This document shows, piece by piece, positions 2,158 to 19,664 of a DNA stretch of 45,425 nucleotides; the first letter of the stretch is position 1, and each line of letters begins with the position of its first letter. The DNA is from Bacillus sp. AFS055030 (GTDB lineage Bacteria > Bacillota > Bacilli > Bacillales > Bacillaceae_G). The stretch lies in NCBI RefSeq assembly GCF_002574545.1, contig NZ_NUGT01000029.1, forward strand, positions 1-45,425, in the 5' to 3' direction. Both the position numbers and the translations under genes were made by a program. The notes beneath the pieces were generated by a model. The model was not told where the DNA came from. It saw nothing but the letters and a program-made list of their open reading frames with translations, and ran no database searches.

Positions 2158-2217
2158 TCAGATTACTCAATTATGGACTAAACTCTGCTTATTTAAAAAT
2201 TCTAGTAATAGTTCATT

Positions 2218-2458
2218 TTACTTTTCCTTGCATTCTATAACTGGTGCATGTCCACATTTATCAAAAATGACTAATTTTGCTTTGCCTAATGTCATGAGGT
2301 GTATCTGTCTAGCCAATATTACCGGCAAAAATTTATCGTATAATCCACCAATAAGATTCTGAAAGGAAAAATTGATTTCTCCACATTTCTTTTATACTTC
2401 TTAATCCATGTATCAACACTAACGGTTCACCCTTAACAATTTCCAGATAATGGAACAC
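2218..2458 (-). pseudogene. Decayed alpha/beta hydrolase with internal deletion
   Basis: On the minus strand the first half reads EIVKGEPLVLIHGL and KEMWRNQFFLSESY, an alpha/beta-hydrolase N-terminus with its oxyanion HG. It then stops. A second half in another frame reads YDKFLPVILARQ and KLVIFDKCGHAPVIEC, the typical C-terminal segment with the catalytic His, ending at a TAA at 2218. The middle with the nucleophile elbow (GxSxG) is missing, and both halves are in different frames. It directly follows the acyl-CoA ligase gene and probably once was the last gene of that operon, perhaps a thioesterase or lactone/ester hydrolase. Confidence 0.75.
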
Positions 2459-2504
2459 TCAAAATAACTCCTTAGTTATAGATAATGTAATTAGAAAAAA
2501 GTAT

Positions 2505-4058
2505 TCAGAAGATAGTTTGATTGTTAGTCTTAAGCCCTTTCATCCGCAGTTCTCTTTTTAATATTTTCCCAGAAGGGTTTCTCGGAAGTGAAGGAACCAC
2601 TTCAAGCACTTTAATGTTCTGATATTTTGCTAGTCTTTCATTGCAATAATCTATCAATTGCTTTTCGTCAATTTCTGATTCTGGCTTTAGTACGATAAAT
2701 GCTTTTACTGCTTCCCCCCACTTCTCATCCTCAATGCCGATAACTGCTGCGTCCAGAACGGATGGATGTGTAAAAAGAACTTCTTCAATATCTTTCGGAT
2801 AAATATTTACTCCACCGCTAATAATCATATCTTTTTTGCGATCCAACAAGTAGTAAAATCCCTCATCATCCACTTTGGCCATATCCCCAGTTTTGAACCA
2901 ACCGCCTGGTAAAAATGATTTTTCCATTTCTTCCGGCAATTTATAATACTCACTAAATAATCCGGCACCTCGAACGACAAACTCTCCTTCTTGCCCCACA
3001 CCTACATCTATTCCTTCATCATCAACAAGCCGAACTTGATAAAAGGCACACTGCTGTCCAACACTGCTTGTTTTACAAATAACATCATCAGGACGAAGAA
3101 TAATAAAAGCACTTGTTTCTGAACATCCGAAAAATTCCGATAAATTCGTCTGGAACTTCTCTACAATTCGCTTTTTAACAGATTCAGCAAGCGGTGCCGC
3201 TGCAGAAAGTAACATCCGCAAAGAAGATAGATCAAATTTTTCAAAATCTGGAACCTGCAACATCATGATATATTGTGTAGGTACAAAAAACGAAAACGTT
3301 ACCTTTTCTTCCTGAATCAACGATAATGTATGTTTCGGATCAAAATCTCTAGCAATGACAAGCTTTGATTCACATAATCCTAAAAAAAATGAAAATAAAT
3401 GCCCAACACTATGGTACATTGGAACAGAAATTAATACAGTATCACCATGATTTATTTTCCATTCATTTGCCCCAATTAATGTCCGGTAAATTATTTTTTC
3501 ATGTGTAAACAAAATACCTTTTGGTAAAGACGTAGTCCCAGATGAATAAATCATTGCCGCAACGTCTGTCCCATTCACTTCAATATTAGGAGGCTCAATT
3601 GATCCGCGATTAATTAAATCCTCGTAATCCAGGTAAGTTGTATTTGGAGGGGTTCCACCGACGATAATCGTTGAACTTGAGTTAATAGTGTGAAGAACAT
3701 CTAATATCGTTTCAAAAGCTTCTAGCTTTTCCACCTCTACAATGGCATGAGTAGCATCCGAACTATTCACTAATGTGCGTAAATCATTCCCTTCAATCAT
3801 GTAATTGATAGGTACTGCAACCGCACCAGCCGTTGATAGTGCATAAAAAACTTCCAGCATTTCTAATCGGTTTCTCATGTACAATACAACGTGAGAACCT
3901 TTTTTTACCCCCGCCTCAATAAGTGAATTGGCTAGCGCATTTACTCTTTCAGATAGTTCCAAAAATGTCCGCGTTGTTTCCCCGTATACAACAGCTATTT
4001 CGTTTGGTTTGTTTTTTGCATACAGTGGTAAGCGTTCATGTAGATTCCCAATATCCAT
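2505..4058 (-). CDS. AMP-forming acyl-CoA synthetase (LvaE/FadD-like)
   Basis: A 517-residue adenylate-forming ligase that activates a carboxylic acid to its CoA thioester through an acyl-AMP. The P-loop-like motif YSSGTTSLPKG lies near residue 170. The A8 hinge region is TGDMAKVDDEGFYYLLDRKK, followed by ISGGVNIYP. The C-terminal catalytic lysine lies in NPSGKILKREL near residue 500. Length is normal for class I ligases. It is the last intact gene of the kinase-ACAD-SDR-ligase set, 107 bases after the SDR stop. Substrate cannot be read from sequence: medium/long-chain acids are the family default, but its neighbours suggest a 4-oxo or 4-hydroxy acid, as for LvaE of Pseudomonas putida. Confidence 0.92.
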   Translation of the reverse strand: MDIGNLHERLPLYAKNKPNEIAVVYGETTRTFLELSERVNALANSLIEAGVKKGSHVVLYMRNRLEMLEVFYALSTAGAVAVPINYMIEGNDLRTLVNSSDATHAIVEVEKLEAFETILDVLHTINSSSTIIVGGTPPNTTYLDYEDLINRGSIEPPNIEVNGTDVAAMIYSSGTTSLPKGILFTHEKIIYRTLIGANEWKINHGDTVLISVPMYHSVGHLFSFFLGLCESKLVIARDFDPKHTLSLIQEEKVTFSFFVPTQYIMMLQVPDFEKFDLSSLRMLLSAAAPLAESVKKRIVEKFQTNLSEFFGCSETSAFIILRPDDVICKTSSVGQQCAFYQVRLVDDEGIDVGVGQEGEFVVRGAGLFSEYYKLPEEMEKSFLPGGWFKTGDMAKVDDEGFYYLLDRKKDMIISGGVNIYPKDIEEVLFTHPSVLDAAVIGIEDEKWGEAVKAFIVLKPESEIDEKQLIDYCNERLAKYQNIKVLEVVPSLPRNPSGKILKRELRMKGLKTNNQTIF

Positions 4059-4165
4059 TTTTCATCTACCTTTCTTTTAGGAATGGTACAAATGTGCACT
4101 TTTCATCTTCAATACACAGGAATATCATTAATTTATTCCCATAGAACAAGCACTTCCCAAGTCAA

Positions 4166-4924
4166 TTATTCCGTTAAAACACCTCCTTCAATAAAAAACG
4201 TTTGTCCCGTCACATAATCGGAAAGATTTGATGCCAAGTATAGGGATATATTAGAAATATCGCTCGGTTCCCCCATTCTTCTTAGGGGAATGGTCTTCAG
4301 CATTTTCTCCAGCCAAATGGAGTTTTTTCGTTCACCTTCATTAATGTCTGTCGCAATCAAACCTGGTGCAATCGAGTTCACATTCAGATTATAACGGGCC
4401 CACTCTGATGCCAATCCCCGTGTCATATGAATAACAGCTGCCTTACTACCAGCATAAGGAACAATCCGCTTATAGGGCTTCACACCACCAGTTGAGGACA
4501 GGTTGATGATTTTCCCTTTGTTCTGGGGAATCATTATTTTGGCAGCTTTTGTACAGCAGAAAAAAAGGCCCTTTACATTCACATCATAAATATCGTCAAA
4601 TTCTTCTTCCGTTACTTCTATCGAAGATTTGGTAAAATTGATGCCTGCATTTTGAATAGAGACATCAAGTCTGCCGAATTCTTTCACTGTTGCATCAAAC
4701 AAGAGGTCAATATCATCTAATTGTGCAACATCACCCGGTATGGGCAATACTTTTACTCCCAGCTTACTTATCTCATGCGCGGTTTCTTCTGCTTTTTCCT
4801 TATTTCTCCCAGAAATGACAATGTTTGCGCCGTTTCTTGCAAAATCAAACGCCATTTGTGCACCAAGTCCACGGCTACCTCCTGTTATCAGTACAGTTTG
4901 TCCACTAAAATCATAATGACTCAT
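4166..4924 (-). CDS. Short-chain dehydrogenase/reductase in the kinase-ACAD operon
   Basis: A 252-residue classical SDR with the cofactor motif TGGSRGLG at residues 14-21, NAG, a catalytic Ser (NLSS) and YxxxK as YAGSK, ending in the usual GGVLTE-type tail. I start it at the ATG at 4924, eight bases after AAGGAG; an upstream TTG overlaps that site. It should interconvert a hydroxy and an oxo group on an acyl-CoA or free acid. By position (between an ACAD10/11-like gene and an acyl-CoA ligase) it matches the place of LvaD, which reduces a 4-oxoacyl-CoA to the 4-hydroxyacyl-CoA. That assignment is inference from context; 3-oxoacyl reduction is the alternative. Confidence 0.88.
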   Translation of the reverse strand: MSHYDFSGQTVLITGGSRGLGAQMAFDFARNGANIVISGRNKEKAEETAHEISKLGVKVLPIPGDVAQLDDIDLLFDATVKEFGRLDVSIQNAGINFTKSSIEVTEEEFDDIYDVNVKGLFFCCTKAAKIMIPQNKGKIINLSSTGGVKPYKRIVPYAGSKAAVIHMTRGLASEWARYNLNVNSIAPGLIATDINEGERKNSIWLEKMLKTIPLRRMGEPSDISNISLYLASNLSDYVTGQTFFIEGGVLTE

Positions 4925-4987
4925 CTTCAATTCTCCTTCGTTTAAAGTTCTTTGCTTACTCTTAAACTTCTAAATCTGTTGAAAAGC

Positions 4988-6193
4988 CTACTTTTGAAAT
5001 TTTTTTAATTCCAGTTTCGTCACTGTTTCTGCGTGCACTTCGTCTGGTCCGTCTGCCATGCGAACAATTCGTGCAGCTTGCCAAAGTTGTGCAAGCGGGA
5101 AAACATCGCTAAATCCGCCTGCTCCGTGAACATGAATAGCTCGATCTAGTATCTTTGTCGCTACCTTCGGGCCAACCACTTTGATCATGGCAATTTCAAG
5201 CTTCGCCTCTTTGTTACCAACCGTATCCATCTTATGTGCGGCAGTCAATGTAAGCAAACGAGCCTGATCTATTTCCATCCTAGATTCAGCAATCCACTGA
5301 CGAAGAGTACCTTGTTGAACTAGTTGCTTTCCGAAAGCAATACGGTCGATAGACCGTTTACACATTAGTTCAAGTCCACGCTCCGCCTGTCCAATAAGCC
5401 TCATGCAGTGGTGAATTCGCCCTGGGCCAAGGCGACCTTGGGCAATTTCAAACCCTCGACCCTCACCGAGAATTAAATTAGATGCAGGTATACGTGCATT
5501 GTTGAATTCCACGATAGCATGTCCGTATGGAGCATCATCGTAACCAAAAACAGGAAGACTACGTTGAATCTTTACACCTGGAGTATCCATAGGGACAAGA
5601 ATCATCGATTGTTGATTATACTTATCTGCATTTGGATTGCTTTTCCCCATAACAATCATAACTTTGCAAGCTGGATTCATCGCACCGGAAATAAACCATT
5701 TTTTACCATTAATTACATAATCGTCTCCATCTCTCTCTATCCGTGTAGCAATATTCGTAGCATCTGAAGAGGCTACATCTGGTTCAGTCATAGCAAAAGC
5801 CGATCGAATCTCGCCATTCAACAACGGAAGTAACCATTGTTTTTTTTGCTCCTCGTTGCCATAACGATGAAGCAGTTCCATATTCCCTGTATCAGGAGCG
5901 CTGCAATTAAAGACTTCTGGAGCTATGACAGAGCGCCCCATAACTTCACATAATGGAGCGTACTCGAGGTTCGTTAATCCAGCACCGTGTTCACTATCCG
6001 GCAAGAAGAGATTCCACAAACCCGCCTTTTTTGCTTTTGATTTCATTTCTTCCATAATAGGGACCGTTTTCCAACGGGTGATGCCCTCATTTAGTTGTTC
6101 TTCATAAATCCTCTCATTCGGATACACAACTTCTTCCATGAAAGTAAGCAATTTTTCCCTTAACAATCTTGTTTTTTCATTTATTTCGACCAT
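4988..6193 (-). CDS. ACAD10/11-type acyl-CoA dehydrogenase (LvaC-like)
   Basis: A 401-residue FAD-dependent acyl-CoA dehydrogenase. The FAD-binding loop reads [14 protein letters not shown]. The C-terminal half has [26 protein letters not shown] and a terminal ADGPDEVH motif. GRIHHCMR and ADGPDEVH are what I know from ACAD10/ACAD11 and their bacterial FadE relatives rather than from ordinary fatty-acyl dehydrogenases. I start at the ATG at 6193, behind AGGAAGGGGG, rather than at a further upstream ATG. The gene lies 111 bases after the APH-fold kinase gene, the same two domains that are fused in animal ACAD11. Likely role: dephosphorylating conversion of a 4-phosphoacyl-CoA, or plain dehydrogenation. 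Confidence 0.9.
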
Positions 6194-6304
6194 TTCAAAA
6201 TCCCCCTTCCTTTCTTTCATCTTTTGTATATAGAACAAGTTGTTCAAAGTAGAACTTTCCTATTTATGTACACGTACATTTCAAACTAAAAAAGTGTTTA
6301 GTTA

Positions 6305-7384
6305 CTACAAGCTAAAATCGCTTTTTTGCTGTGAATGTTCATTTGCATGCTCCATAAAAACTTTAACTGTATGATTGAAGGTGGCGAATCTCTCGTCTTT
6401 AGTGGCTCCTATTTTCCACCGATAATACATTTGTTGCATAGCAATCGCTATCCTGAAATAAGAAAAGGTTAAATAGAAGTGGATATTTGAGACATCACGC
6501 TTTGTTTTCTTTGCATAACGTTCGACAAACTCTCTTCGACTAATAAAACTTGAATGGGCTGTAATACTTGGTATCCCCAGCTTGATTAACTCCGGATCAT
6601 CATGTTGAATCCAATATCCAAGTGTTGTTCCTAAATCAAATAAAGGATCCGCAATCGCTGCCAATTCCCAATCAACCACTGCTTCTACTCTTTGAAGATC
6701 ATTCGAAATCAGCATGTTGTTTAATTTGTAGTCGTTATGAATAAGAACAGCATCACTTGAGGGAGGAATATTCTCGATCAACCATTTGGAAATCTGGTCA
6801 AATGGTGAGATTTCTTCCGTTTTGCAAAGTTGGAAACGTTTAATCCAGCTATGTATTTGCCTTTCCACGAATCTTTCTGGACGGCCAAATTCATCTAACT
6901 TCGATTCTTTAATATCGACCGAGTGCAGTTCCGCCAGAGTATCTACCGCCAAATAAGACACCTGTTTGCAGTCATCATCAGAAAAGCTTTTCCCCTTTGG
7001 GAATTCCTTATCCAGAACCAACCCGTTCTTTCGTTCCATCACATAAAATGGTACCCCGATGATACTTTCGTCTTCACAAATTACATATGGTTTAGGTACA
7101 TACGAAAAAAACGGATAGAGTCGGGACATAATTTTCGACTCTCTCCCCATGTCATGGGCTTTTGGTGGAAGCGGACCAGAAGGAGGCCGGCGCATAACCG
7201 CCTCCCAGTCTCCGCATTGAATCAAGTAGGTGAGATTGGATGCTCCTGCCTGAAACTGCCTAACTGTCAATGGTTGATCCGGGATCCCATCTATATGTTT
7301 TTGCAAATATTTTCTAATTGCCTCCCAGTTCAATTCGTCCATTCCACCTACTAATATCGTATTGGCATCTAACTCTTTATTCAT
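6305..7384 (-). CDS. APH-fold phosphotransferase of the ACAD10/11 (LvaA) type
   Basis: A 359-residue protein of the aminoglycoside-phosphotransferase/choline-kinase fold. The catalytic loop is HNDYKLNN (H216, D218, N223) and the metal site is DWE at 238-240, followed by DPLFDLG. The N-lobe has GASNLTYL near residue 47 and RRPPSG with HDMGRE, typical of the ACAD10/11 N-terminal kinase domain rather than of antibiotic kinases. Start chosen at the ATG at 7384, behind GGGAG; an ATG five codons upstream overlaps the binding site. It is the first gene of the kinase-ACAD-SDR-ligase run. Inferred role: phosphorylation of the hydroxyl of a 4-hydroxyacyl-CoA. It should not be read as a resistance gene. 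Confidence 0.88.
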   Translation of the reverse strand: MNKELDANTILVGGMDELNWEAIRKYLQKHIDGIPDQPLTVRQFQAGASNLTYLIQCGDWEAVMRRPPSGPLPPKAHDMGRESKIMSRLYPFFSYVPKPYVICEDESIIGVPFYVMERKNGLVLDKEFPKGKSFSDDDCKQVSYLAVDTLAELHSVDIKESKLDEFGRPERFVERQIHSWIKRFQLCKTEEISPFDQISKWLIENIPPSSDAVLIHNDYKLNNMLISNDLQRVEAVVDWELAAIADPLFDLGTTLGYWIQHDDPELIKLGIPSITAHSSFISRREFVERYAKKTKRDVSNIHFYLTFSYFRIAIAMQQMYYRWKIGATKDERFATFNHTVKVFMEHANEHSQQKSDFSL

Positions 7385-7680
7385 GCTAACATCTCCCATT
7401 CATTAGTACACAAACACTACTCTTTTATTGAATGATTGTTTTAACTTAAACGCTATATAATGGTGTTATTCAAAATACCATAGCTTCACACATTTGTTTT
7501 CAAACCAGAATGGCATTCTAGTGAAAGCGTATTCATTTCTCCGCGGCCACAAAAATCTACTTTCACCATTCTCTTCCAAAAAAACAAGTTTTTTTTGCTT
7601 AGAACTTTTTTTAATCATTGACGTTTGACGAAATATTTTATGATCTTATATTAAAATAGGATGATTCATTTGTTTTGAGG

Positions 7681-8823
7681 TTATTTCTGTAGTTGTTCAA
7701 GAGGTATTAATATTTCTTTGTTATTCTCACCCAGTTCGACTCCGATATGTTTATACTCGGGTTTAAAGACAGTTGACTTAATCGGGCAGGCAATTTGTTT
7801 TTGATAGCCCCTATTTGACTTAGGAACTTCTACAATCATTCCGCGACCCGCAATTTGCGGATGCTCACAGGCCTCGGCAAACGTAAGGACCGGTTCCACG
7901 CAAGCCTCGATTTTACCGAAGATCGTTTGCCACTGAGTAAATGTTTTCTCAAGGAAAGCAGTCTGTACTTCCTTCTTAAAGGCATGAATATCATCCGGCT
8001 TCTCGCTAAAGCTAAGTTCAAGTAAGTCTGTGCGTCCAATTCCTTCGCATAAAAGCTTACGGAATTTTGGCTCAATGCTTCCTACAGAAAAATACCGGCC
8101 ATCTTTTGTTTCATAATAGTCATAGAAGGTACCACCATTTAACATCGTCTTCTCAAGCTCAGGATTAATTCCCCCCATCAAATAACCAGCTGCAACAGTA
8201 GCATTCAAGGCAAAACTACAATCCGTCATACTGATATCAATCCATTGACCTTCACCCGTACGTCCTCTATAGATAACAGCAGATAAGATTCCAATAATCC
8301 CATGCAAGGAGCCGCCAGCTACATCCGCAATTTGAATTCCCGTAGGTGCAGGTCCTCCTTTTTGACGACCTGAATAACTTGCTATGCCGGAAATAGACAA
8401 ATAATTATTATCATGTCCGGGGCGATTACGGTACGGACCAGTTTGCCCATAACCTGTTATAGAGCAGTAAATTAATTTTGGGTTAACTTCTTTTAAAGTG
8501 TCATAACCTAGCCCTAATCGTTCCATTACACCTGGACGAAATTGTTCTAATACGATGTCATATTCTAAAACTAATTTTTTAATAATTTCAATTGCATCCG
8601 CTTTCTTTAGATCTAATGTAATCGATTTTTTAGAACGATTGATATAACCATGATTTACAGAATCTTTTCCATCTCGTGGGACCCCATCTCGCAACAGATC
8701 GGGCCTTGTAGCTGATTCCACACGTAAAACTTCAGCTCCAAGGTCTGCTAGCATCATAGTTGCATATGGACCAGGAAGCAAAGTAGAAAAATCCAAAATC
8801 TTTAATCCTTTAAGCAATGTCAT
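7681..8823 (-). CDS. CaiB/BaiF family protein, alpha-methylacyl-CoA racemase-like
   Basis: A 380-residue class III CoA-transferase-fold protein. Its residues fit the racemase branch: H137-D138 in PGHDNNYLS, D167 in IADVAGG and E251 in SIEPKF line up with the catalytic His, Asp and Glu known for 2-methylacyl-CoA racemases. It would epimerise a 2-methyl-branched acyl-CoA, or move CoA between acids if it is a transferase. Start ATG follows GGAGAGAAG. It lies about 300 bases upstream of the kinase gene and after the acyl-CoA dehydrogenase at 9083-10267, all minus strand, so it may share their regulation. The choice of racemase over transferase rests on these residues only. Confidence 0.85.
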   Translation of the reverse strand: MTLLKGLKILDFSTLLPGPYATMMLADLGAEVLRVESATRPDLLRDGVPRDGKDSVNHGYINRSKKSITLDLKKADAIEIIKKLVLEYDIVLEQFRPGVMERLGLGYDTLKEVNPKLIYCSITGYGQTGPYRNRPGHDNNYLSISGIASYSGRQKGGPAPTGIQIADVAGGSLHGIIGILSAVIYRGRTGEGQWIDISMTDCSFALNATVAAGYLMGGINPELEKTMLNGGTFYDYYETKDGRYFSVGSIEPKFRKLLCEGIGRTDLLELSFSEKPDDIHAFKKEVQTAFLEKTFTQWQTIFGKIEACVEPVLTFAEACEHPQIAGRGMIVEVPKSNRGYQKQIACPIKSTVFKPEYKHIGVELGENNKEILIPLEQLQK

Positions 8824-8884
8824 ATACTTCTCTCCATCCTCATAACTTGTTTTCTATCAATCTTCTATCGTAATATTTCAGAAT

Positions 8885-9075
8885 TTAATAGTACTCAAAT
8901 TTCGGAATTAGTTTGACTAAAAATTCACCCTTTCCTTTGAACTTGTAAAGGGGAGTGTCTAAATAATCTTGGGCCATAGCTACAAGTTGCAGTGAGTAAT
9001 TTAAATGTTCTCCAATACTGAGCCGTTTTGTTCAAGACTAATGCATTCAATTGTAGTTTCAATTTGAACCTCTTA
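8885..9075 (-). pseudogene. Unrecognised gene remnant between ACAD and CaiB-like genes
   Basis: On the minus strand one frame encodes ETTIECISLEQNGS and, after a frame change near 9016, continues as IGEHLNYSLQLVAMAQDYL, then TPLYKFKGKGEFLVKLIP and a stop at 8885. The residue pattern looks like a real protein C-terminus, but there is no start, no ribosome site and no recognisable fold motif. I cannot name the family. It sits directly after the acyl-CoA dehydrogenase stop and probably marks a former operon gene. Confidence 0.4.
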
Positions 9076-9082
9076 TACTTTA

Positions 9083-10267
9083 CTAATTTAATCCTAAGTT
9101 GTTAGCAATAATTCCTTTCATAATCTCGTTAGTACCTGCAAAGATCGATAGTACTGCTACATCTCTGTACCATCTAGCAATCTCGTACTCTTCCATATAT
9201 CCATAGCCCCCGTGAAGCTGCATACATTCTGAGGCTGTTTTCTTTGCCAATGCTGTTGTCCACCATTTTGCCATGGACATTTCAGTAATAATATTCTCTT
9301 TAGCGATGTGCTTCTCAATTACATTATCCAAAAACGTACGTCCAATTTGGATCTCTGTTGCAAGCTCAGCAAGTTTAAATTGTGTGTTTTGGAAGGAACT
9401 GATTGATTTTCCAAATGCTTTACGCTCTTTAACATAGTCTAATGTAATTTCTAACATTCTTTCAGCACCAATAATAGCTGAAATCGACACTAATAGTCGT
9501 TCCTGTTGAAGCTTAGACATTAAATAATAAAACCCTTTATTCTCATCTCCTAGTAGATTTTCGACTGGGACAATCGCATCTTCAAATATAAGCTCGGCTG
9601 TATCCTGTGAATGCAATCCTATCTTTTTCAATTTCTTTCCTCTCTTAAAGCCTGGAGTACCTTCCTCAACGACTATTAAACTAATTCCCTTATAGCCTGG
9701 AACTGCATGTGGATCTGTTTTACATGCAACAACAAACAGATTCCCTACAATACCATTTGAAATAAACGTTTTCTCACCGTTTATGACAAAATAGTCCCCT
9801 TTCCTTACAGCAGTTGTCTTAATTGAAGCTAAATCAGACCCCGTACCTGGTTCTGTCATAGCAACTCCTGATATAATTTCTCCTGAAACGGCCCCAGGTA
9901 ACCAACGTTTTTTCTGCTCTTCCGTGCCATAGCTTTCAATGTATGGCATAACAATATCACTATGTAGGCCAGAAGCACCACCAGCACCTAACCCTAATTT
10001 ATTTAACTCTTCATTGATTACGACTGAATAACCAAAATCTGCATTTAATCCTCCGTATTCTTCACTTACCCAAGGGCATAAATATCCTTGTTCCCCCATT
10101 TTTTTCAAAAATGTTAAAGGTACTGATCGATCTTCTTCCCATTTTTCTATGAAAGGAGCTGCTTCCTTTTCTAAAAATTTTGCAAATGCTTTTCTGAATA
10201 TATGGTGTTCTTCTTTCAAATAACTTTTATGAGTAATATTAGTTTTTCCCGTCAATGTTTTTGCCAT
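9083..10267 (-). CDS. Acyl-CoA dehydrogenase, long-chain type
   Basis: A 394-residue FAD enzyme of fatty-acid or branched-acid beta-oxidation. FAD/substrate motif AMTEPGTGSDLASI lies near residue 137, with ERKAFGKSISSFQ and the C-terminal LHGGYGYMEEYEIARWYRD. At the place where short- and medium-chain enzymes have the catalytic Glu (YEGT) this one has FAGTNEI, so that base is absent. E256 in LQQERLL instead matches the base used in long-chain and isovaleryl-CoA dehydrogenases. Start ATG follows GAGGGGTAAG. It is flanked by gaps of about 440 bases upstream and 260 downstream, the latter holding a gene remnant. Confidence 0.92.
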   Translation of the reverse strand: MAKTLTGKTNITHKSYLKEEHHIFRKAFAKFLEKEAAPFIEKWEEDRSVPLTFLKKMGEQGYLCPWVSEEYGGLNADFGYSVVINEELNKLGLGAGGASGLHSDIVMPYIESYGTEEQKKRWLPGAVSGEIISGVAMTEPGTGSDLASIKTTAVRKGDYFVINGEKTFISNGIVGNLFVVACKTDPHAVPGYKGISLIVVEEGTPGFKRGKKLKKIGLHSQDTAELIFEDAIVPVENLLGDENKGFYYLMSKLQQERLLVSISAIIGAERMLEITLDYVKERKAFGKSISSFQNTQFKLAELATEIQIGRTFLDNVIEKHIAKENIITEMSMAKWWTTALAKKTASECMQLHGGYGYMEEYEIARWYRDVAVLSIFAGTNEIMKGIIANNLGLN

Positions 10268-10709
10268 CTATCTTACCCCTCTTTTGTATATGATTTGCAT
10301 TCAATTGCTTCTTCTCAGATATTTCCAAATCATGCTTTTTTTGTATGAATCTACTGTATTTCATTTTCTGGTGCTTAGCAGAAATAGACCTGATCACTTA
10401 ACTAAGTTACCCAGTGATTTTCCTTAATAACCTCTTTTTAATTTTTATAATTCAACAAAAGAATATTGCGTTGTTATTAATAGTTCTTAATTCCTAGATA
10501 GTCCACTATTTTATTAGTAGACATTCGGAAAATAATTGTAGGAATTATGACAAATACTTTTCAATTTGAAAACTGAGTTTTCGAAAAAATCAGACGATGA
10601 ATTAACCAACATTAAGCAATTATCATATCTTTGCTAATAATGCGAACCACCGCCTAACTTTTAATTTTTCTTGAATATAACTTACAATGCAATAACCTGT
10701 AGATTCATA
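10268..10709 (-). other. Intergenic region without a gene
   Basis: The 442 bases between the enoyl-CoA hydratase stop and the acyl-CoA dehydrogenase start are AT-rich, and I see no protein remnant, clear hairpin or RNA in them. The promoter of the downstream minus-strand dehydrogenase would be expected here, but I cannot point to convincing -35/-10 boxes. Confidence 0.5.
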
Positions 10710-11486
10710 TTATTTCCCTTGGAACTGAGGGCGCCTTTTTTCCAAAAATGCTTGTACACCTTCTCTAACGTCCTCTGTCAGGAAAAGTTCTTGAAACAAT
10801 TCTGCCTCTTTTTCGAGAGCCTTATTAAACGGTAATTCAATGCCTTCATCTACCGCCCTTTTTATATTTCTCACTGCAGTAGGTGAGTTTTTGCATATTT
10901 TCTTTGCTAGCTGAAGACCAGCTTGTAATCCTTCACCCCTTGGGACAACTCTATTTACTAAACCGATTCGCAAAGCCTCTTCTGCGGTAATATGTTCACC
11001 TGTAAACATTAACTCCTTTGCTTTGGCTTCACCAATAAGTCGTGGTAAGCGCTGTGTCCCTCCTCCACCAGGGAATAATCCAAGCGTTGATTCAGGTACT
11101 CCAATTAATGCCTGCTCTTCTGATATACGGATGTCACAAGTTAGTGCAAGTTCACATCCACCGCCAAGTGTATAACCATTTAATACGGCAATCGTAGGTT
11201 TTGGAGAGAAATCAATGCTATTTAATACCTCATGTGTCTTTGAAAAACTTGGGATTAAATTAGGATTTCCAATTTTTTCAGGGAACCCTTTTATGTCTCC
11301 TCCTGCCATAAATGCCTTTTCCCCAGCACCTGTAACAATAATTGCCAATACCTCAAGATCATTATTTAGGTTTGCGAATTGTTCCCCTAATTCTTGAATA
11401 ACTGCTTCACTCAATGTGTTCATAGGTGGGTTGTCAATCATTACAATCGCTATGCTGTCTTGCTTTTCAACTTTAATGAGTGCCAT
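10710..11486 (-). CDS. Enoyl-CoA hydratase/isomerase family protein
   Basis: A 258-residue crotonase-fold enzyme that hydrates a trans-2-enoyl-CoA to the 3-hydroxyacyl-CoA. Both catalytic glutamates are in place, in GGGCELALTCDI and VPESTLGLFPGGGGTQRLP, along with the oxyanion-hole AFMAGGDI segment. I use the ATG at 11486, five bases after GAGGTGAT; the GTG three codons upstream lies inside that site. It follows the 3-hydroxyacyl-CoA dehydrogenase-like gene by 54 bases and so forms a three-gene beta-oxidation unit with it and the thiolase. Confidence 0.93.
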   Translation of the reverse strand: MALIKVEKQDSIAIVMIDNPPMNTLSEAVIQELGEQFANLNNDLEVLAIIVTGAGEKAFMAGGDIKGFPEKIGNPNLIPSFSKTHEVLNSIDFSPKPTIAVLNGYTLGGGCELALTCDIRISEEQALIGVPESTLGLFPGGGGTQRLPRLIGEAKAKELMFTGEHITAEEALRIGLVNRVVPRGEGLQAGLQLAKKICKNSPTAVRNIKRAVDEGIELPFNKALEKEAELFQELFLTEDVREGVQAFLEKRRPQFQGK

Positions 11487-11540
11487 TAGTATCACCTCTA
11501 AAAGATTTTGATAAAAAATTGCAAGAAAACTCTTATTCTA

Positions 11541-12311
11541 TTATTTTGGCTGCATGCGAATCGCACCGTCTATACGAATGACTTCACCGTTTAACATTGG
11601 ATTTTCGATGATAGTTTGGACAAGATGAGCGAATTCACTTGGACGCCCTAAACGTTTAGGGAATGGAACCATTGCACCAAGAGAATTTAATAGTTCTTCA
11701 GGAGCACCATCAAGGATTGGAGTTTTGAAAATGCCCGGTGCAATCGTTAGAACGCGAACCCCGTAGCTTGCCAGGTCACGAGCGATTGGAAGTGTCATGC
11801 CTACAACGCCGCCTTTAGAAGCACTGTAGGCAGCTTGACCAATTTGTCCTTCAAATGCTGCAACAGAAGCAGTGTTGACGATTACTCCTCTTTCTCCGCT
11901 TTCATTTGGCTCGTTTTGAGCCATCTTTTCAGCTGCCAATCGAATCACATTAAATGAACCGACTAAGTTTACATTAATAACTTTTTTAAATTGCTCAAGT
12001 GAATGAGGACCATTTTTTCCAACAGTTTTTTCCCCAATTCCAATTCCAGCACAATTGATAGCTGCAGTAATCTTACCGAATTTTTCAACCGCTTGATCTA
12101 ATGCAGATTGAACATCTGATTCATTTGCTACATTTGTTTTTACATAAAGCACATTATCTGATCCAAGTTCTTCAACTAAATTGGTTGCTTTATCATCGTT
12201 TAGGTCAATAATAAGAGCCTTTCCACCATTTGCTACTGTATTTCTTACTGTCGCTTCTCCAAGTCCTGAAGCTCCACCTGTAACAACTACTACACTATTT
12301 TTCAATTCCAT
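11541..12311 (-). CDS. SDR, 3-hydroxyacyl-CoA dehydrogenase type-2-like
   Basis: A 256-residue SDR with TGGASGLGE at the N-terminus, NCAG, a catalytic Ser in [11 protein letters not shown] and Tyr/Lys in YSASKGG, and APGIFKTP. The overall pattern (including [12 protein letters not shown] and the end [15 protein letters not shown]) is that of type-2 3-hydroxyacyl-CoA dehydrogenases (HSD17B10-like), which oxidise 3-hydroxy- and 2-methyl-3-hydroxyacyl-CoA with NAD. Start at the ATG at 12311, eight bases after AAGGAG. Between thiolase and enoyl-CoA hydratase it supplies the third beta-oxidation step. The 2-methyl-branched specificity is inferred from family and from the racemase-like neighbour. 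Confidence 0.9.
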
Positions 12312-12347
12312 TTTCAACACTCCTTAATTATTAAATTTTGTAAAAAT

Positions 12348-13487
12348 TTATAATCTCTCAATAATTGTTGCATTAGCTTGTCCGTGACCTTCACAAATCG
12401 ACATTAAGCCATATCTTCCACATGAACGTTCAAGTTCATGAAGTAAGGTAGTCATGATACGAGCACCTGTACCGCCAATTGGATGTCCAAGAGCAACCGC
12501 CCCACCGTTTACATTTAGCTTGTTCAAATCAGCACCAAGTTCTTGTGCCCACACCAATGGAACAGGAGCAAATGCTTCATTCACTTCATATAAATCCATA
12601 TCTTCGAGAGTAAGTCCTGCTTTTTCCAAAGCTTTTTTAGATGCTGCAATTGGACCTGTCAACATTAATGTTGGATCAGAACCAACAACACTCCGTGAAA
12701 TAATACGAGCGCGAGGTTTTAATTCTAATTCTTCAGCTTTATCACGGGACATAATTAATACAGCAGCCGCCCCATCACTTATTTGACTAGAATTTCCGGC
12801 ATGAATTTTTCCATTTTCTTGGAAAACAGGTTTAAGCTTTGCTAATTTTTCTAAACTAGTATCCCCTCTTGGTCCTTCATCAACGGAAACAATTGCTGTT
12901 GTACCATCTGGAAGCGTAACTTCGATAGGAGCGATCTCTCTTTCAAAGCGGCCTTCTTTTTGTGCATAAACTGCTTTTCTGTGGCTTTCTATAGAAAATT
13001 CATCTAATTGTGTACGACTAATGCCCCATTTATCGGCAACACGTTCAGCTGATACACCCTGATGAATGACCTCATATCTTTTAAAGTACTCCTGACTATG
13101 ATCTGAAATCGCCATTGGTAAAACATGTGTCATACTTTCAACACCGCCAGCAATAACAACATCCATATCACCACTTAATATTGCCTGTGCTGCAAAATGG
13201 ATTGCTTGTTGACCTGATCCACATTGACGTTCTACCACAACTCCAGGTACTTCAATTGGAAAATCTGCGATTAACGCAGCTACTCTAGCAAGGTCAAATG
13301 ATTGTTGCCCAACTTGCATTCCGACACCAAAAATCACATCTTCGACAAGCTTTGGAGAAATTCCAGTTCTTTTAATAAGCTCCTTTAATGTATGTGCGGC
13401 TAACTCTTGAGGATGAGTAGCACTTAAAGCCCCTTTATGTTTCCCTATTGGTGTTCTTACCGCTTCGACAATTACTACTTCACGCAT
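12348..13487 (-). CDS. Acetyl-CoA acyltransferase (thiolase)
   Basis: A 379-residue thiolase that splits a 3-oxoacyl-CoA with CoA. Acyl-enzyme cysteine C89 lies in VERQCGSGQQAIHF, the catalytic His in GHPIGGTGAR, and the second cysteine in SICEGHGQANATI near the C-terminus (more often CIGGGQG). The NEAFA motif is present. Start ATG behind AAGGAG. It is the first gene of the beta-oxidation set; 270 bases upstream hold no gene, so the operon promoter should be there. Confidence 0.95.
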   Translation of the reverse strand: MREVVIVEAVRTPIGKHKGALSATHPQELAAHTLKELIKRTGISPKLVEDVIFGVGMQVGQQSFDLARVAALIADFPIEVPGVVVERQCGSGQQAIHFAAQAILSGDMDVVIAGGVESMTHVLPMAISDHSQEYFKRYEVIHQGVSAERVADKWGISRTQLDEFSIESHRKAVYAQKEGRFEREIAPIEVTLPDGTTAIVSVDEGPRGDTSLEKLAKLKPVFQENGKIHAGNSSQISDGAAAVLIMSRDKAEELELKPRARIISRSVVGSDPTLMLTGPIAASKKALEKAGLTLEDMDLYEVNEAFAPVPLVWAQELGADLNKLNVNGGAVALGHPIGGTGARIMTTLLHELERSCGRYGLMSICEGHGQANATIIERL

Positions 13488-13785: not shown

Positions 13786-14101
13786 CCCCCTCTACCCCAC
13801 AATTGATGAATATAAGGCATTACCTTCTCAACATACTTCACATCAAGTTCCATATGTTCATAGGAATGTTTCAAATAAAGCTCACCGTTTTTTAAATAAT
13901 CGCCCTCTTGAACAACGATATATGGGATACCTCCATTTACTCGACTAACAACAAGTTGATCTCTTACATTTTCCCATGCCTTATCGGTATCTTTATATTT
14001 CTTACCTTGTCGCTGGAATAGATACATATCTTCACGCATAACAAGCTCTTTCGTTAAATAGTTTCGGATGAATGAGCTGTCAGATTCTAATTCTCGTACC
14101 T
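13786..14101 (-). pseudogene. spoVR 3'-fragment B
   Basis: About 105 codons match the C-terminal part of SpoVR encoded intact at 20865-22286, from RELESDSSF through HQLWGRG. The similarity begins abruptly at 14101 and stops abruptly at 13786, after which the frame runs on into unrelated codons. Many third-position differences from the intact gene show it is not a recent copy. There is no N-terminal part and no start. It lies 165 bases left of the dead IS3-family element. Confidence 0.85.
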
Positions 14102-14314
14102 TACCTAAATGAGATAGAAAAAAATAAGTTGAAAAAAGAACCGATTACATGTGAAAAAATTTTAATACAAAAAAGACACTATCTTGTATTTAAACGACGT
14201 AAAAAAATTGCCTAAACCGAATGGTGTCAGTTTATCTATTTAAGAAAAAAACACGTGATATAGAAGTGCACCCCAAAAGTTAGACATAGTCTAACTTTTG
14301 GAGGTGCATTTTTT

Positions 14315-14767
14315 ATGACAAAATTTACTATTGATGAGAAAATATTTGCCGTAAAACGTTACTTGGAAGGGAATGAATCTCAAACAGAGATTTCAAATTC
14401 TATCGGAGTTCACCATTCTGTTTTTCAAACATGGTTACAAAAATTTCAGTATCATGGTGAACAAGGTTTTCAAAAAAGATATACTTCATACGATTTGCAG
14501 TTTAAACTAGATGTACTTAACTATATGAACGAACAAGGAACATCGATCAGAGAAACAGCTGCAATTTTTAACATTCCTACTCCTTCTACTCTTTTTCAGT
14601 GGAAAAGGCAGTTAGAAATAATCGGTACAGATGCCCTTGAATTAAAGAAGAAGGGGCGTCCACCATTGTCTAAAAATAATTCAAACACTAGTAGTAATAA
14701 GGAAGTAGATAAAGGATCAATTGAAGCTTTAAGAGCTGAGAATGAACGTTTACGAATTAAGGCATGA
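14315..14767 (+). pseudogene. IS3-family OrfA, C-terminally truncated
   Basis: A 150-codon frame with two helix-turn-helix units (RYLEGNESQTEISNSIGVHH and later IRETAAIFNIPTPSTLFQWK) and the start of the leucine-zipper segment EALRAENERLR. Normally the zipper continues for some 30 residues to the slippery frameshift site; here it ends five codons later. An internal deletion has removed this end together with the start of OrfB, and OrfB is not in the usual -1 frame relative to OrfA. Start ATG lies behind GGAGGTGC. Confidence 0.8.
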
Positions 14768-15587
14768 ATTTTCGGTAAAGTCCCTTCTACAACTCGCAGA
14801 CATCCCACGTAGTACGTATTATTATTGGGTGAAAAATTTAGATCGTCCAGATCCAGATGCAGAGCTAAAAGTGTTAATAAAAGCTATTTACGATGAACAC
14901 GAAGGTATTTATGGCTATCGTAAAATACGAGATGAGCTTACAAATCGAGGATATACAGTAAATCATAAAAAAGTTCAACGTCTCATGAAAATAATGGGAA
15001 TAAAATCACTAGTGAAGGTAAAGAAATATCGCTCTTACAAAGGCAAAGTGGGTAAAACAGCTCCTAATATTTTAAATCGAAATTTTCAAGCATCTAAGCC
15101 AAATGAGAAATGGGTTACAGACATAACCGAATTTAAATTATTTGGAGAAAAGCTATATTTGTCACCTATGTTGGACTTATATAATGGTGAAATAATTACT
15201 TATACAATCGGTTCAAGACCGACCTATTCACTTGTTTCAACTATGTTAGAACAGTCTTTTGAACGATTAAAAGTTTCTGATACATAGCTTATTCATTCAG
15301 ATCAAGGGTGGCACTATCAAATGAAACGGTATCGTAGTGCCCTTATTGAGCATGGCATCACACAGAGTATGTCTCGAAAAGGAAACTGTTACGATAACGC
15401 AGTAATAGAAAGTTTCTTTAGTATCATGAAATCTGAACTACTCTATCTTAAGGAATTTAAAAGCATCGCACACTTTAAACAAGAACTAGCTAAATATATA
15501 GATTACTATAACAACAAACGAATTAAGGCTAAATTAAAAGGCATGAGCCCGATAAAATACCGAGTTCATGCCCAACAGGCTGCCTAA
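14742..15587 (+). pseudogene. IS3-family OrfB (DDE integrase) with in-frame amber stop
   Basis: The frame begins within OrfA (YELRHEFSVKSLLQLADIPR, a typical near-N-terminal OrfB segment) and carries the DDE core: first Asp in WVTDITEF, second Asp in [10 protein letters not shown], Glu in [15 protein letters not shown] at 15285-15287 interrupts it between the first and second Asp; the frame then continues unchanged to the stop at 15585-15587. With the stop and the lost N-terminus it should be inactive. Confidence 0.85.
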
Positions 15588-15624
15588 TTAAAATTACCAG
15601 TCTAACTTTATGGGGTCAGTACAT

Positions 15625-16197
15625 TCTCAATATTCGTCTCTAAATGAACTCCCCTACCCCACAATTGATGAATATAAGGCATTACCTTCTCAACATACTT
15701 CACATCAAGTTCCATATGTTCATAGGAATGCTTCAAATAAAGCTCCCCATTTTTTAAATAATCGCCTTCTTGAACAACAATATAAGGGAATCCACCGTTA
15801 ACCCTACTAACAAATGATCTCGTACATTTTCCCACGCTTTATCCGTAACTTTATATTACTTACCTTGTCGCTGGAATAAATACATATCTTCACGCATGAC
15901 AAGATCTTTTGTTAAGTAGTTTCGTATAAATGAACTATCAGACTCTAACTCTCGTACTTCAAACATTTTTTCTCGACCGCTGCCAGGTTTAACACCTAAC
16001 TCTCTCATTTCTTTGCTTGGATTATTATATCGCTCTTCAATATCTTCAAACATTCTTAGTCTAAATATTACGGGTTAATGCTTGTTTTTGATGGCTGTAC
16101 AACACCTGCGTTTAGTTTTGCGTATTCGATTGCTTCGTTTGAGTCTAGGTTTAGTTCGCGCATGATACGGATATGCCAATAACTTGCCCAACCTTGT
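15625..16197 (-). pseudogene. spoVR 3'-fragment A
   Basis: A second partial spoVR copy, matching the intact gene from about [13 protein letters not shown] to VHLETNIEN. It is broken by a nonsense codon (GAA to TAA in RQGKEYK), by a 4-base deletion near 15811 and by single-base losses near 16061-16068. It has no 5' part; homology starts abruptly at about 16197. It is cut at its 3' end by the right end of the IS3-family element. It shares several bases with fragment B against the intact gene, so the three are separate alleles. Confidence 0.88.
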
Positions 16198-16261: not shown

Positions 16262-17197
16262 TTACTTTCTTACGTATTTATTTTGAAGCCCATCTTTATA
16301 CTCACTTATTTCACCTTTTGCAACTAAATAACTTAAATAGGCATTAGTCTCTCCGAGTGCAATCCACTTATCTAGTACACTTGAAGCTATTGGAAATAAA
16401 CTATTTGATACTTGGTACGCACTCATCTCTCCTGTAATCTGCTCGAGTACAAAACCAATTCGATCTTCATAATGATTTAGTAGTTCGTTAATTCGCTCTT
16501 GTGCATCCATAAAAATGGGACCATGTCCTGGTAGAACTAATGAAATTCCCATTAATTGCATTGATTTTAATGTCTCAAGATAGATACTTAATGGATTTTG
16601 ATTTCCGTAGCCATGATATGAGATATAAGGTATAGTTTCTCTAGTCAAATGATCTCCTGACAGAAGAATCTGTTCTTCACTATTATAAAAACAGATGTGC
16701 CCATCCGAATGACCAGGCATTGGTATAGCTTCAAAAAGAAGCTCACCAATTGGATAAAGCCTATTTGTTTCTATGGTACACACGTTCTTCGGAAATCTAT
16801 TAGCTGATGTGTTCACAGGTTGTAATTGCTTTACTAGTTCCTGTGGCACGCCTGCTGATAAATAAAATCTTGAAAGTGATTCCACATCTAGATTATTCTG
16901 TGCGATTGCTTGTTCTTTCTCACTTAGAAAAACATTCGCTCCAGTCTGCTGTTGTAATTCTCTTGCATATTCAAAATGATCAGGGTGATGATGGGTTATC
17001 AAGATACGCTCAACATCTCGAAGTGGTTCAATACTGTATTTATTAAACGCAGCTTCCCAGGCCAAGCGAGTTTCATTGCGATTCATTGCCGTATCGATTA
17101 TTGTCCACTTTCCTTCTCTACAGGCTAAGTAACAATGAACATTATCATTCCAAAAAGGTAGTGGAATTGTTACTTGATAAATGCCATATCCTTTCAT
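16262..17197 (-). CDS. MBL-fold metallo-hydrolase
   Basis: A 311-residue metallo-beta-lactamase-fold hydrolase with the metal motif THHHPDH, a further His in PGHSDGH, Asp in LSGDHLT and His in LPGHGPIF. This set fits a two-metal hydrolase of thioesters, lactones or similar bonds (glyoxalase II/LACTB2-like), not an antibiotic beta-lactamase. The C-terminal 60 residues form a helical winged segment seen in LACTB2-like members. I take the ATG at 17197, behind AAAGGA; an ATG ten codons upstream has a poorly spaced site. Last gene of the hydrolase-MFS-MBL cassette. Substrate unknown. Confidence 0.85.
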   Translation of the reverse strand: MKGYGIYQVTIPLPFWNDNVHCYLACREGKWTIIDTAMNRNETRLAWEAAFNKYSIEPLRDVERILITHHHPDHFEYARELQQQTGANVFLSEKEQAIAQNNLDVESLSRFYLSAGVPQELVKQLQPVNTSANRFPKNVCTIETNRLYPIGELLFEAIPMPGHSDGHICFYNSEEQILLSGDHLTRETIPYISYHGYGNQNPLSIYLETLKSMQLMGISLVLPGHGPIFMDAQERINELLNHYEDRIGFVLEQITGEMSAYQVSNSLFPIASSVLDKWIALGETNAYLSYLVAKGEISEYKDGLQNKYVRK

Positions 17198-17277
17198 TTT
17201 TTCAATTCCTTTATTAATTAATTGCATAATAGGCTATTTCACCTCTACTTTAGCCATTTGTTAAACTAAGATTTATT

Positions 17278-18603
17278 TCATACAATCTGATTATTTACAG
17301 CGTTTTTAACTATTTCACTGGTTTGAACTGGTTTTTCTTTTAGGAATAGAGCACTAACTGCTGCTATCGCTGCAAGTACTGAGAAAAATATAAATACTTT
17401 AGTGAAATCAAAACTTCCACCTGTACGAACTGTTATTAGATAACCGGCTACTAACGGGGTTACAAATGCCCCCAACTGACCACAACCATTAACTATTCCC
17501 GTTACACTACCGACCACTCCACTAGGGTATCTTTTTTGAAGCGCAGCTGTTAAAGAACCAGAGTTAAATGCTACAAAAAATCCTGACGCCAATAGCAAAA
17601 TTAATAGCATAGGTGTATTTCCCTTATTAACTGATCCGAGCATCCAAAGCACAGGGATACATCCAATATAAGCAATCAGAGCAATTGGTTTCATTTTATT
17701 AAATTTATCCATCAACCAACCTCCCATTAAAATACTGATGATACTAATTATTGGAGGTAATGATGAGACAAACCCCATTTCCTTAATATTAAAGTTGTGT
17801 TGTTGGACTAAAAAAGTGCTAAGCCACGTTGTGAATCCCCAAAGAATACCGATCTGACAAAACATCATCAGGCAAATCACATAGAAGGTACGATCTTTCA
17901 AGTAAATCTTGTGGTTAACTTTTTCCTTCGTAGTTACTTGTAGAGTTGCCCCTTTATTCTGATTAATAAAATCTAATTCACTTTTACTTATTCTGCCTTT
18001 TTTATACATTTCTTCTGGTGTATCTTTAAAGAACAACCAAAGTAGTAATATACCAATTACACCAGGAATAGCTAGTGTAAAAAATACCGGTCTCCACTGA
18101 CCGTCAAATAAAGAAGCAGAGAGATTAGTTAAGATAATAGGTACAAGTGCTAAGCCAACATAATTGGAAGTATTAAAAATTGAAAGGGCTTTACCGCGAT
18201 CTGAATATGGGAACCAATTACTAATTGCTTTAGCCGAAGGGGGAAAATGATGTGCTTCTCCTAGCCCTAAACCTATTCGTAAAGCAATAAACTGGGTAAA
18301 ATTTTTGACAAATCCAGTCACTACACTTACTAATGTAAAAACAATTATGGCAACATTCATGACCTTTTTTGGTCCGAATTTATCTGCTAAAAATCCAGAA
18401 GTAACTTGTCCAACCGCATACGCGAAAAAGAAGGCGGAAGCGATTTGTCCAACTTGTACTGGCGTTAAGTTCATATCTTTTTGTATAAATGGTAAGAAAG
18501 TTAACACAGCCACACGGTCAAAGTAATTGATTATATATAGTAGCCAAACGATAAACAAAATAACGTATCGATATCCCCATACTTTCCTTACTGCATTTGA
18601 CAT
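17278..18603 (-). CDS. MFS transporter, anion:cation symporter type
   Basis: A 441-residue membrane carrier with about 12 hydrophobic segments. The motif GFLADKFGPKK between segments 2 and 3 and RIGLGLGEAHHFPPS in segment 4 are those of the ACS family (sugar-acid and other organic-anion proton symporters such as GudP/ExuT relatives). The N-terminal NYFDRVAV also fits. Start ATG follows AAGGAAGGGAAG. It is co-directional with an alpha/beta hydrolase 39 bases upstream and an MBL-fold hydrolase 80 bases downstream, so it probably imports the carboxylate these enzymes act on. The substrate is not readable from sequence. Confidence 0.9.
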   Translation of the reverse strand: MSNAVRKVWGYRYVILFIVWLLYIINYFDRVAVLTFLPFIQKDMNLTPVQVGQIASAFFFAYAVGQVTSGFLADKFGPKKVMNVAIIVFTLVSVVTGFVKNFTQFIALRIGLGLGEAHHFPPSAKAISNWFPYSDRGKALSIFNTSNYVGLALVPIILTNLSASLFDGQWRPVFFTLAIPGVIGILLLWLFFKDTPEEMYKKGRISKSELDFINQNKGATLQVTTKEKVNHKIYLKDRTFYVICLMMFCQIGILWGFTTWLSTFLVQQHNFNIKEMGFVSSLPPIISIISILMGGWLMDKFNKMKPIALIAYIGCIPVLWMLGSVNKGNTPMLLILLLASGFFVAFNSGSLTAALQKRYPSGVVGSVTGIVNGCGQLGAFVTPLVAGYLITVRTGGSFDFTKVFIFFSVLAAIAAVSALFLKEKPVQTSEIVKNAVNNQIV

Positions 18604-18642
18604 ATATTTTTACTTCCCTTCCTTTATTGGCTTTTATTTTTT

Positions 18643-19479
18643 TTAATCTTTCAATAAATTCCTAACCTCATTAACAATGCTGTCCCATACTTTTGAATCT
18701 GGATCAATAATTTCAAAGTGTTCTACATTAGGAAACGTAATCATCTTAACTTGATCACCTGCTTTTTCGGCAAGTTCTTTATATAGGGCACTTAATTTTA
18801 CTGGAACATTTACATCTAAATCACCATGAATCAATATTTGGGGAATATTTAAAGGAAGCAATTGAACTGGTGAAACTTCAGCATATCTTTCAGGTACTTC
18901 ATTTGGCGTACCACCTACAAAGTCAGTTACTGGGTTATCAATTTTCATATTTTTTACCATTTGTTGTTTGTAATTGATCAAGTTATTCATAAGTTCTAAG
19001 TCAATTATGCCACCTAAACTGACTACTCCTTTAAGTAATAGAGGGTCACTGGACGTTTTTAATATACTATCTTCATGTAGATGATTACGGCCCGCTAACC
19101 AAAAAGCAAGCTGTCCTCCAGCAGAGTGACCCATTGCAACCACTTTTTTTAAATCTAAAGAATATTCTTCCGCTATTGTTACTAAAAAGTCTGTAGCATT
19201 GGCAACATCATTTAATGTGCCAGGATATGCACCTCCAATGTTGCCTACCCTTCTATATTCAATATTCCAAGTTGCTAGTCCACATTTTGTAAGGTCTTCT
19301 GCAACGGCATCCATTAAATCTGCCCCAAATATCGATTTCCAAAATCCTCCATGAATAACAACAACTACTGGATGTGGTCCTGGTCCATCAGGGATACGTA
19401 ATTCTCCATATTGCCATTGATCCTCACCATAAGTCAATCGTATCTTTTTTGTTTTTTCAATCCGATTATCAACTGACAT
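18643..19479 (-). CDS. Alpha/beta hydrolase, carboxylesterase-like
   Basis: A 278-residue alpha/beta hydrolase. HGGFWKS provides the oxyanion hole, GHSAGGQLAF the nucleophile Ser, HGDLDVNVPV the acid Asp and NVEHFEI the His. This HGG/GHSAGG combination is that of BD-FAE-like and hormone-sensitive-lipase-like esterases. No signal peptide, so cytosolic. Start ATG at 19479, eight bases after GGAGG. It is the first gene of a three-gene cassette transcribed away from the TrmB-type regulator, with three operator-like repeats in between. Likely an ester or lactone hydrolase. Confidence 0.88.
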   Translation of the reverse strand: MSVDNRIEKTKKIRLTYGEDQWQYGELRIPDGPGPHPVVVVIHGGFWKSIFGADLMDAVAEDLTKCGLATWNIEYRRVGNIGGAYPGTLNDVANATDFLVTIAEEYSLDLKKVVAMGHSAGGQLAFWLAGRNHLHEDSILKTSSDPLLLKGVVSLGGIIDLELMNNLINYKQQMVKNMKIDNPVTDFVGGTPNEVPERYAEVSPVQLLPLNIPQILIHGDLDVNVPVKLSALYKELAEKAGDQVKMITFPNVEHFEIIDPDSKVWDSIVNEVRNLLKD

Positions 19480-19609: not shown

Positions 19610-19664
19610 CTTGTTAAATTATTATAGTTATTTTTCAGAATATTATCAATATTAATTTTAAAAT

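Follow-up and report, generated by a model that had tools for sequence, protein, structure and literature searches.

Four adjacent minus-strand genes in Bacillus sp. AFS055030, encoding a kinase, an acyl-coenzyme A (acyl-CoA) dehydrogenase (ACAD), a short-chain dehydrogenase/reductase (SDR) and an acyl-CoA ligase, raise the question of whether this organism channels 4-hydroxy acids into beta-oxidation in the manner of the levulinate (lva) pathway of Pseudomonas putida, as a preliminary description of the sequence had proposed. The genes lie in the window examined here, which is one entire contig (NZ_NUGT01000029.1; 45,425 bases) of a 4.39 Mb genome. On the basis of the observed gene content, family membership, active-site residues and the reappearance of many of these genes together at other loci, we consider it likely that they are part of an accessory catabolic cluster through which 4-hydroxy (or 4-oxo) carboxylic acids enter beta-oxidation via phosphorylation and elimination.

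The kinase and the dehydrogenase

All four genes were present without internal stops, and their Pfam domain scores all exceeded the cut-off:

6305..7399, minus strand: APH-fold kinase of the LvaA/ACAD10-11 kinase-domain type, proposed 4-hydroxyacyl-CoA 4-kinase (364 aa; likely start ATG 7384; Pfam APH, 146 bits)
4988..6247, minus strand: acyl-CoA dehydrogenase of the LvaC/ACAD10-11 type, proposed 4-phosphoacyl-CoA dehydrogenation-elimination enzyme (419 aa; likely start ATG 6193; Acyl-CoA_dh N, M and C-terminal domains)
4166..4930, minus strand: PRK07231-like SDR, proposed 4-oxoacyl-CoA reductase/4-hydroxyacyl-CoA dehydrogenase with a putative LvaD-like role (254 aa; adh_short_C2, 205 bits)
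2505..4058, minus strand: acyl-CoA ligase, proposed activating enzyme with a putative LvaE-like role (517 aa; Pfam AMP-binding, 265 bits)

The starts at 7384 and 6193, already chosen in the preliminary description, were favored over the longer open reading frames (ORFs) by ribosome sites, GGGAG lying 8 nt ahead of ATG 7384 of the kinase and GGGGGA ahead of ATG 6193 of the ACAD. The motifs claimed for both proteins were likewise found, the kinase carrying the HxDxxxxN and DWE motifs of the APH/PKL fold and the ACAD the motif ADGPDEVH. The CoA-contact arginines of the kinase were kept, R86-E87 and R180 (mouse R176) being invariant in 133 sequences; the published R86 was identified from its described place next to the alphaC glutamate, while a count along the chain gives 84 and the two numberings were not reconciled. 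In a phmmer search of the PDB, which returned nine matches at E 0.01, the window kinase matched ACAD11 with 181 bits. In the ACAD, R272, H280, R283 and D399 correspond to R626, H634, R637 and the catalytic D753 of mouse ACAD11, and the best fold match of its predicted structure was ACAD10/11. Trees, built by a quick method only, placed the ACAD11-type dehydrogenases in a group apart from ordinary ACADs and the window kinase in a 15-row Bacilli kinase clade (98); a second, core copy of the kinase in the same genome grouped with 9o56 (99). Thus, conserved residues, trees, sequence matches in the PDB and predicted structures together place the kinase and the ACAD in the LvaA/LvaC-ACAD10/11 pair, and the phylogeny and structure prediction that had been suggested as checks both agree with the original assignment. 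An ATP-dependent enzyme that phosphorylates 4-hydroxyacyl-CoA is the proposed role of the kinase.

Compared with animal ACAD10 and ACAD11, with which the two proteins share key residues and the best-matching ACAD fold, the window kinase and ACAD are two ORFs separated by a 57-nt gap rather than fused, and there is no HAD domain.

A proposed route for 4-hydroxy acids

The four-gene operon originally described proved to be understated. The kinase, ACAD, SDR and ligase genes are the 3' part (the last four genes) of a directon of nine consecutive intact minus-strand ORFs, as judged from ORF calls and Pfam, that runs from 13487 down to 2505 and continues upstream of the kinase with five more genes; the genome also holds a second kinase/ACAD set. 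From 13487 the order is thiolase, HSD10-like SDR, enoyl-CoA hydratase, ordinary ACAD, CaiB, kinase, ACAD11-type ACAD, SDR and ligase, with intergenic gaps of 27, 45, 442, 259, 281, 57, 57 and 107 nt, respectively, and most of the nine ORFs are preceded by a fair ribosome site. The five upstream genes and a possible remnant at the downstream end are as follows:

12348..13487, minus strand: thiolase (acetyl-CoA C-acyltransferase) for the proposed final step (Pfam Thiolase_N and _C; TIGR01930, 456 bits against 241)
11541..12320, minus strand: SDR resembling 3-hydroxyacyl-CoA dehydrogenases of what we take to be the HSD10 type (Pfam adh_short, 162 bits)
10710..11495, minus strand: enoyl-CoA hydratase, proposed to hydrate the 2-enoyl-CoA product (Pfam ECH_1, 228 bits)
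9083..10267, minus strand: ordinary acyl-CoA dehydrogenase by Pfam, distinct from the ACAD11 type (the five key positions read KRVSA, not RRHRD; outside the ACAD11 group in the tree)
7681..8823, minus strand: CaiB/BaiF family III CoA-transferase, possible alternative CoA activation (Pfam CoA_transf_3, 321 bits)
2180..2480, minus strand: possible alpha/beta hydrolase remnant (two frames, by eye)

In the ACAD10/11 route, as given in the available text of two reports, the kinase first adds phosphate to the CoA ester at its 4-hydroxyl, and the ACAD then oxidizes the product, expels phosphate, probably via a dienoyl-CoA, and returns the electrons to give a 2-trans-enoyl-CoA with no added acceptor (PMC11342911, PMC12440821); the same sources describe that ACAD10 domains can be replaced in vitro by Burkholderia pseudomallei orthologues (PMC12440821 / PMC11342911). 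Applied to the window, the ligase (or CaiB) would form the CoA ester, the SDR would convert a 4-oxo group to a 4-hydroxy group where required, and the kinase with ATP would phosphorylate the 4-hydroxyl. The ACAD11-type enzyme would then oxidize the ester, expel phosphate and hand the electrons back to leave a 2-enoyl-CoA, from which the hydratase, the HSD10-like SDR and the thiolase would complete one round of beta-oxidation; levulinate as the input would yield acetyl-CoA and propionyl-CoA. The gene set would therefore constitute, in principle, a full route from a 4-oxo or 4-hydroxy acid to acetyl-CoA and a shortened acyl-CoA; from the gene content we infer each of these reactions, the roles of the SDR and the ligase, a single transcript and the substrate.

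The P. putida lva operon (LvaABCDE), as far as the available text describes it, agrees with the window in the kinds of kinase, ACAD, SDR and ligase that it has and in the predicted order of steps (PMC9399607, PMC6692424). In contrast to that operon, the window directon also holds beta-oxidation genes and is without LvaB, an LvaR-type regulator or an LvaFG-type transporter among the genes scanned. The P. putida system was compared by description and not by sequence, and the window SDR and ligase are likened to LvaD and LvaE by kind only. For the regulator and the transporter, the scan covered 16 proteins between 793 and 20650, the rest of the genome not being searched. LvaB, which we take to be the Pfam family DUF6285, was absent as previously noted: the 57-nt gap between kinase and ACAD holds no ORF of at least 70 aa, and DUF6285 gave no match in the genome itself or in 10 plasmid records and none above cut-off in 398 genomes of the class. 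The accompanying suggestion that the kinase may act alone is plausible, because ACAD10/11 and the B. pseudomallei orthologues (PMC12440821, PMC11342911) and the Pseudomonas citronellolis cluster (PMC6692424) are described without LvaB in the available text of these sources. From that text, the P. citronellolis LA18T lva cluster resembles the window in its kinase, LvaC-like ACAD, SDR and lack of LvaB (PMC6692424); it differs in that a histidine phosphatase adjoins its kinase, whereas the window cluster is without a phosphatase gene.

Most likely, the substrate is a short acid (such as levulinate or 4-hydroxyvalerate) or a 4-hydroxy acid derived from a gamma-lactone, although levulinate or 4-hydroxyvalerate itself seems less likely than not. 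The alternative that survives best keeps the same kinase-ACAD chemistry and gives it a natural substrate other than levulinate, such as a longer or ring-derived 4-hydroxy acid (e.g., an opened gamma-lactone), and it places the SDR at a different step; we regard the arguments for and against it as evenly balanced. Three relatives in the window-kinase clade (L061, L063 and L064) adjoin genes that resemble, by eye, an LLM-class flavin monooxygenase, a flavin reductase and a lipase-like hydrolase, as in lactone-forming routes, and a Cupriavidus cluster lies near a dihydroxyacetophenone dioxygenase gene. However, no such monooxygenase, reductase or lipase genes were found among the Pfam-scanned genes of the window cluster, where the sole trace is the unconfirmed hydrolase remnant. 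This remnant had been described as a decayed hydrolase at the operon end. By eye, three-frame translation does yield two alpha/beta-hydrolase-looking pieces (GEPLVLIHGL.. and LVIFDKCGHAP..) in different frames at ~2180-2480, but neither piece, searched separately, reached any Pfam model, and no match was found among the proteins of the loci compared. Beyond it, a zinc alcohol dehydrogenase gene (793-1794) is set off from the cluster, again by eye, by a palindrome at ~2110-2149 and ~700 nt without an intact gene.

An accessory set beside a putative spoVR hot spot

At a threshold of E<=1e-40, 181 of 397 genomes sampled from the order and 104 of 398 from the class had the kinase. Thus, the enzymes of a Gram-positive pathway are there as first described, but the Gram-positive version is not a singular find, because such kinases are common in Bacilli. 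Strain AFS055030 itself has one in the window and a second, core copy on contig C14, which comes with its own ACAD (locus L041); the core kinase and ACAD are 48% and 67% identical to those of the window, respectively. The core Bacilli cluster differs from that of the window in carrying TetR, thioesterase, quinone-oxidoreductase-like and ComB-like genes and in having its kinase in a different clade. Eleven of the 12 other genomes of the genus carry a single kinase copy, 46-49% identical to the window kinase and in G003 spread across contigs, and G004 lacks the gene. Six of 12 other window-clade loci have an SDR with 50-64% identity to the window SDR at 4166-4930 no more than eight genes from the kinase, and L123 has one of 53% identity; a CaiB gene lies within the same distance in five of the 12 and was also present on the Cupriavidus plasmid. 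Several other kinase loci have an enoyl-CoA hydratase 51-65% identical to that of the window, the remaining ones there being just 28-46% identical. Because a core copy exists elsewhere in the genome, the window kinase falls in a separate clade, and the SDR and CaiB recur in the loci of that clade, the window cluster is an accessory second set that was probably acquired. A megablast search for a near-identical copy of 2505-13487 gave no match in the plasmid collection searched. As a separate observation, locus L066 (contig JAGGRA010000015.1), titled Pseudomonas sp. ISL-84, bears a typical Bacilli kinase cluster, and its name or assembly may be wrong.

The cluster adjoins debris of spoVR copies (13788-14102 and 15623-16196) and a transposase pair (14315-15287), the first ORF of which matches HTH_Tnp_1 and which looks IS3-like by eye; an intact spoVR lies at 20865-22289. 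Besides the intact gene, 10 of the 13 genomes of the genus carry 3' fragments of spoVR at least ~100 residues long. Nine spoVR fragments, from seven loci, retain their start, and all of them break at codon 265, at a site resembling AAGGCTGGGCAAGTTATTGGCA (window positions 16174-16195 and 21475-21496), and in eight of the nine a shared end sequence, resembling GATCTTTGAGAGAAAC, precedes the spoVR fragment. Displaced spoVR 3' parts alternate with cargo operons in the window and in L241-L250, and the same sets of cargo genes turn up next to spoVR copies of different species; no recombinase was found among eight cargo proteins scanned. Overall, spoVR looks like a cassette hot spot in Gottfriedia-type genomes, and the 4-hydroxy-acid cluster, the outer end of which falls outside the contig, may be one of its old cassettes. 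Window positions 16262-20650, encoding a TrmB-type regulator, a BD-FAE hydrolase, an MFS transporter and a metallo-beta-lactamase-fold protein, are a cassette also present in L243 and L246.

Three further explanations of the cluster fared worse. It is improbable that the kinase acts on another hydroxyl (a tertiary alcohol or a steroid or terpenoid side chain), like the 25-hydroxy steroid kinase, with the ACAD as a coincidental neighbor: the kinase matches ACAD11, 9ft5 was absent from the nine phmmer matches, the neighboring ACAD holds the phosphate-handling residues, and in 45 of 79 named loci the kinase has an ACAD11-type gene no more than eight genes away, though as its immediate neighbor in only three. 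(Eighty loci were fetched, some sharing a genome; L070 was dropped, as no kinase ORF was called.) Slightly less probable still is a decaying passenger without function, to which the possible hydrolase remnant, the adjacent spoVR and insertion-sequence debris and the second, core kinase/ACAD set would lend some support, and against which stand the unbroken series of nine intact ORFs, most of them preceded by a fair ribosome site, and the conserved catalytic residues. The database-style name, aminoglycoside resistance phosphotransferase, is suggested by the APH fold and by one PDB homologue so named, and with acyl-CoA enzymes as the neighbors it has next to no chance of being right. This aminoglycoside kinase reading was rejected on the acyl-CoA context and on the NCBIfam APH(3') model, which scored 32.8 bits against a cut-off of 205.

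Possible phosphatase-family partners of the kinase

The related genomes suggest that the kinase is often accompanied by a phosphatase-family partner. A homologue of PF04029 (ComB, 2-phosphosulfolactate phosphatase; the family also includes proteins of other function) lies within 10 genes of the kinase in 48 of the 79 loci and is immediately adjacent in 39, many of these adjacent pairs having short or overlapping gaps. Among 60 relatives, our genome included, PF04029 was present in all 31 genomes with the kinase (the ComB of G021 is a fragment) and in none of the 29 others, and the two genes start within 8 kb of each other in 27 of the 31. The pair is found in 20 genera and missing from 25, one of the 20 being mixed, as G004 lacks both. 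At the level of the class, PF04029 (E 1e-15) occurred in 67 of 104 kinase genomes versus 89 of 294 without kinase (Fisher 1.2e-9, with the same genome draw assumed and kinship ignored). In strain AFS055030 the ComB-like protein (C14:91835-92512, L041) is encoded upstream of the core ACAD. In 71 ComB-like proteins from kinase loci, D38, E82, T115-N116-G117-T118, N137 and D167 (1vr0 chain numbering) were kept in all, while R41 was replaced by L in 67, N95 by P in 70 and H213 by V in 63; 1vr0 and 2yyv, two structures named 2-phosphosulfolactate phosphatase, share the original residues at these three positions.

Candidate partners of other folds were seen among 18 plasmid loci, which we chose from 40 listed of 278 matching records; for the high-GC loci, genes were taken from the records' own annotation, which is incomplete. 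A histidine phosphatase gene lies within two genes after the kinase in eight of the 18, and a Haloferax HAD hydrolase gene lies two genes before the kinase (Pfam check of two):

L142, L144, L145, L146, L259, L260, L261, L262: plasmid loci with histidine phosphatase, from Ideonella, Azospirillum, Pseudoalteromonas (two), Deinococcus (two), Streptomyces and a Rhodobacteraceae strain

In the available text, the histidine phosphatase beside the P. citronellolis kinase is suggested to act on the phospho-intermediate (PMC6692424), and the HAD domain of ACAD10 is described as restraining the kinase, with negligible phosphatase activity (PMC11342911). Tentatively, and as one joint claim that we rate somewhat short of even, kinases of the LvaA/ACAD11 type may be retained together with a partner of a phosphatase family, taken from unrelated folds on separate occasions. 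In Bacillota and Rubrobacter this partner would be a ComB-like PF04029 protein; in Proteobacteria, Deinococcus and Streptomyces, a histidine phosphatase; in Haloferax, a HAD protein; in animals, the HAD domain of ACAD10; and in P. putida, perhaps LvaB. The partner would restrain the kinase or dephosphorylate stray 4-phosphoacyl products, and the accessory kinase of the window would borrow the ComB of the core set. Because the arginine of DVLRATS is gone from the kinase-linked ComB proteins, along with other charged positions, while their acidic core is kept, the partner would be a repurposed enzyme or a regulator. Several counts weigh against this proposal: 31 of the 79 loci have no ComB-like gene within 10 genes of the kinase, 37 of the 104 kinase genomes of the class are without PF04029 at E 1e-15 and 89 of the 294 kinase-free genomes have it, no phosphatase is annotated in the vicinity at nine of the 18 plasmid loci, and the window cluster itself has none. 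In the open literature we found no paper that combines 2-phosphosulfolactate phosphatase, acyl-CoA dehydrogenase and phosphotransferase, and among the matches listed on levulinate, 4-hydroxy fatty acid, ACAD11 or LvaA none mentions phosphosulfolactate phosphatase.

The phosphorylation-elimination chemistry of ACAD10/11 is already known, and the pattern of phosphatase partners may be the part that a specialist would not expect. These results place the ACAD10/11 route in Bacilli, where close to half of the genomes sampled from the order have the kinase, and offer unfused, LvaB-free versions of the kinase and ACAD for work on mechanism and for use on levulinate or lactones. Control of the phospho-intermediate has been raised before, in the available text, for the ACAD10 HAD domain (PMC11342911) and the P. 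citronellolis histidine phosphatase (PMC6692424), and the co-occurrence of the kinase with ComB makes it testable how cells limit or clean up this intermediate.

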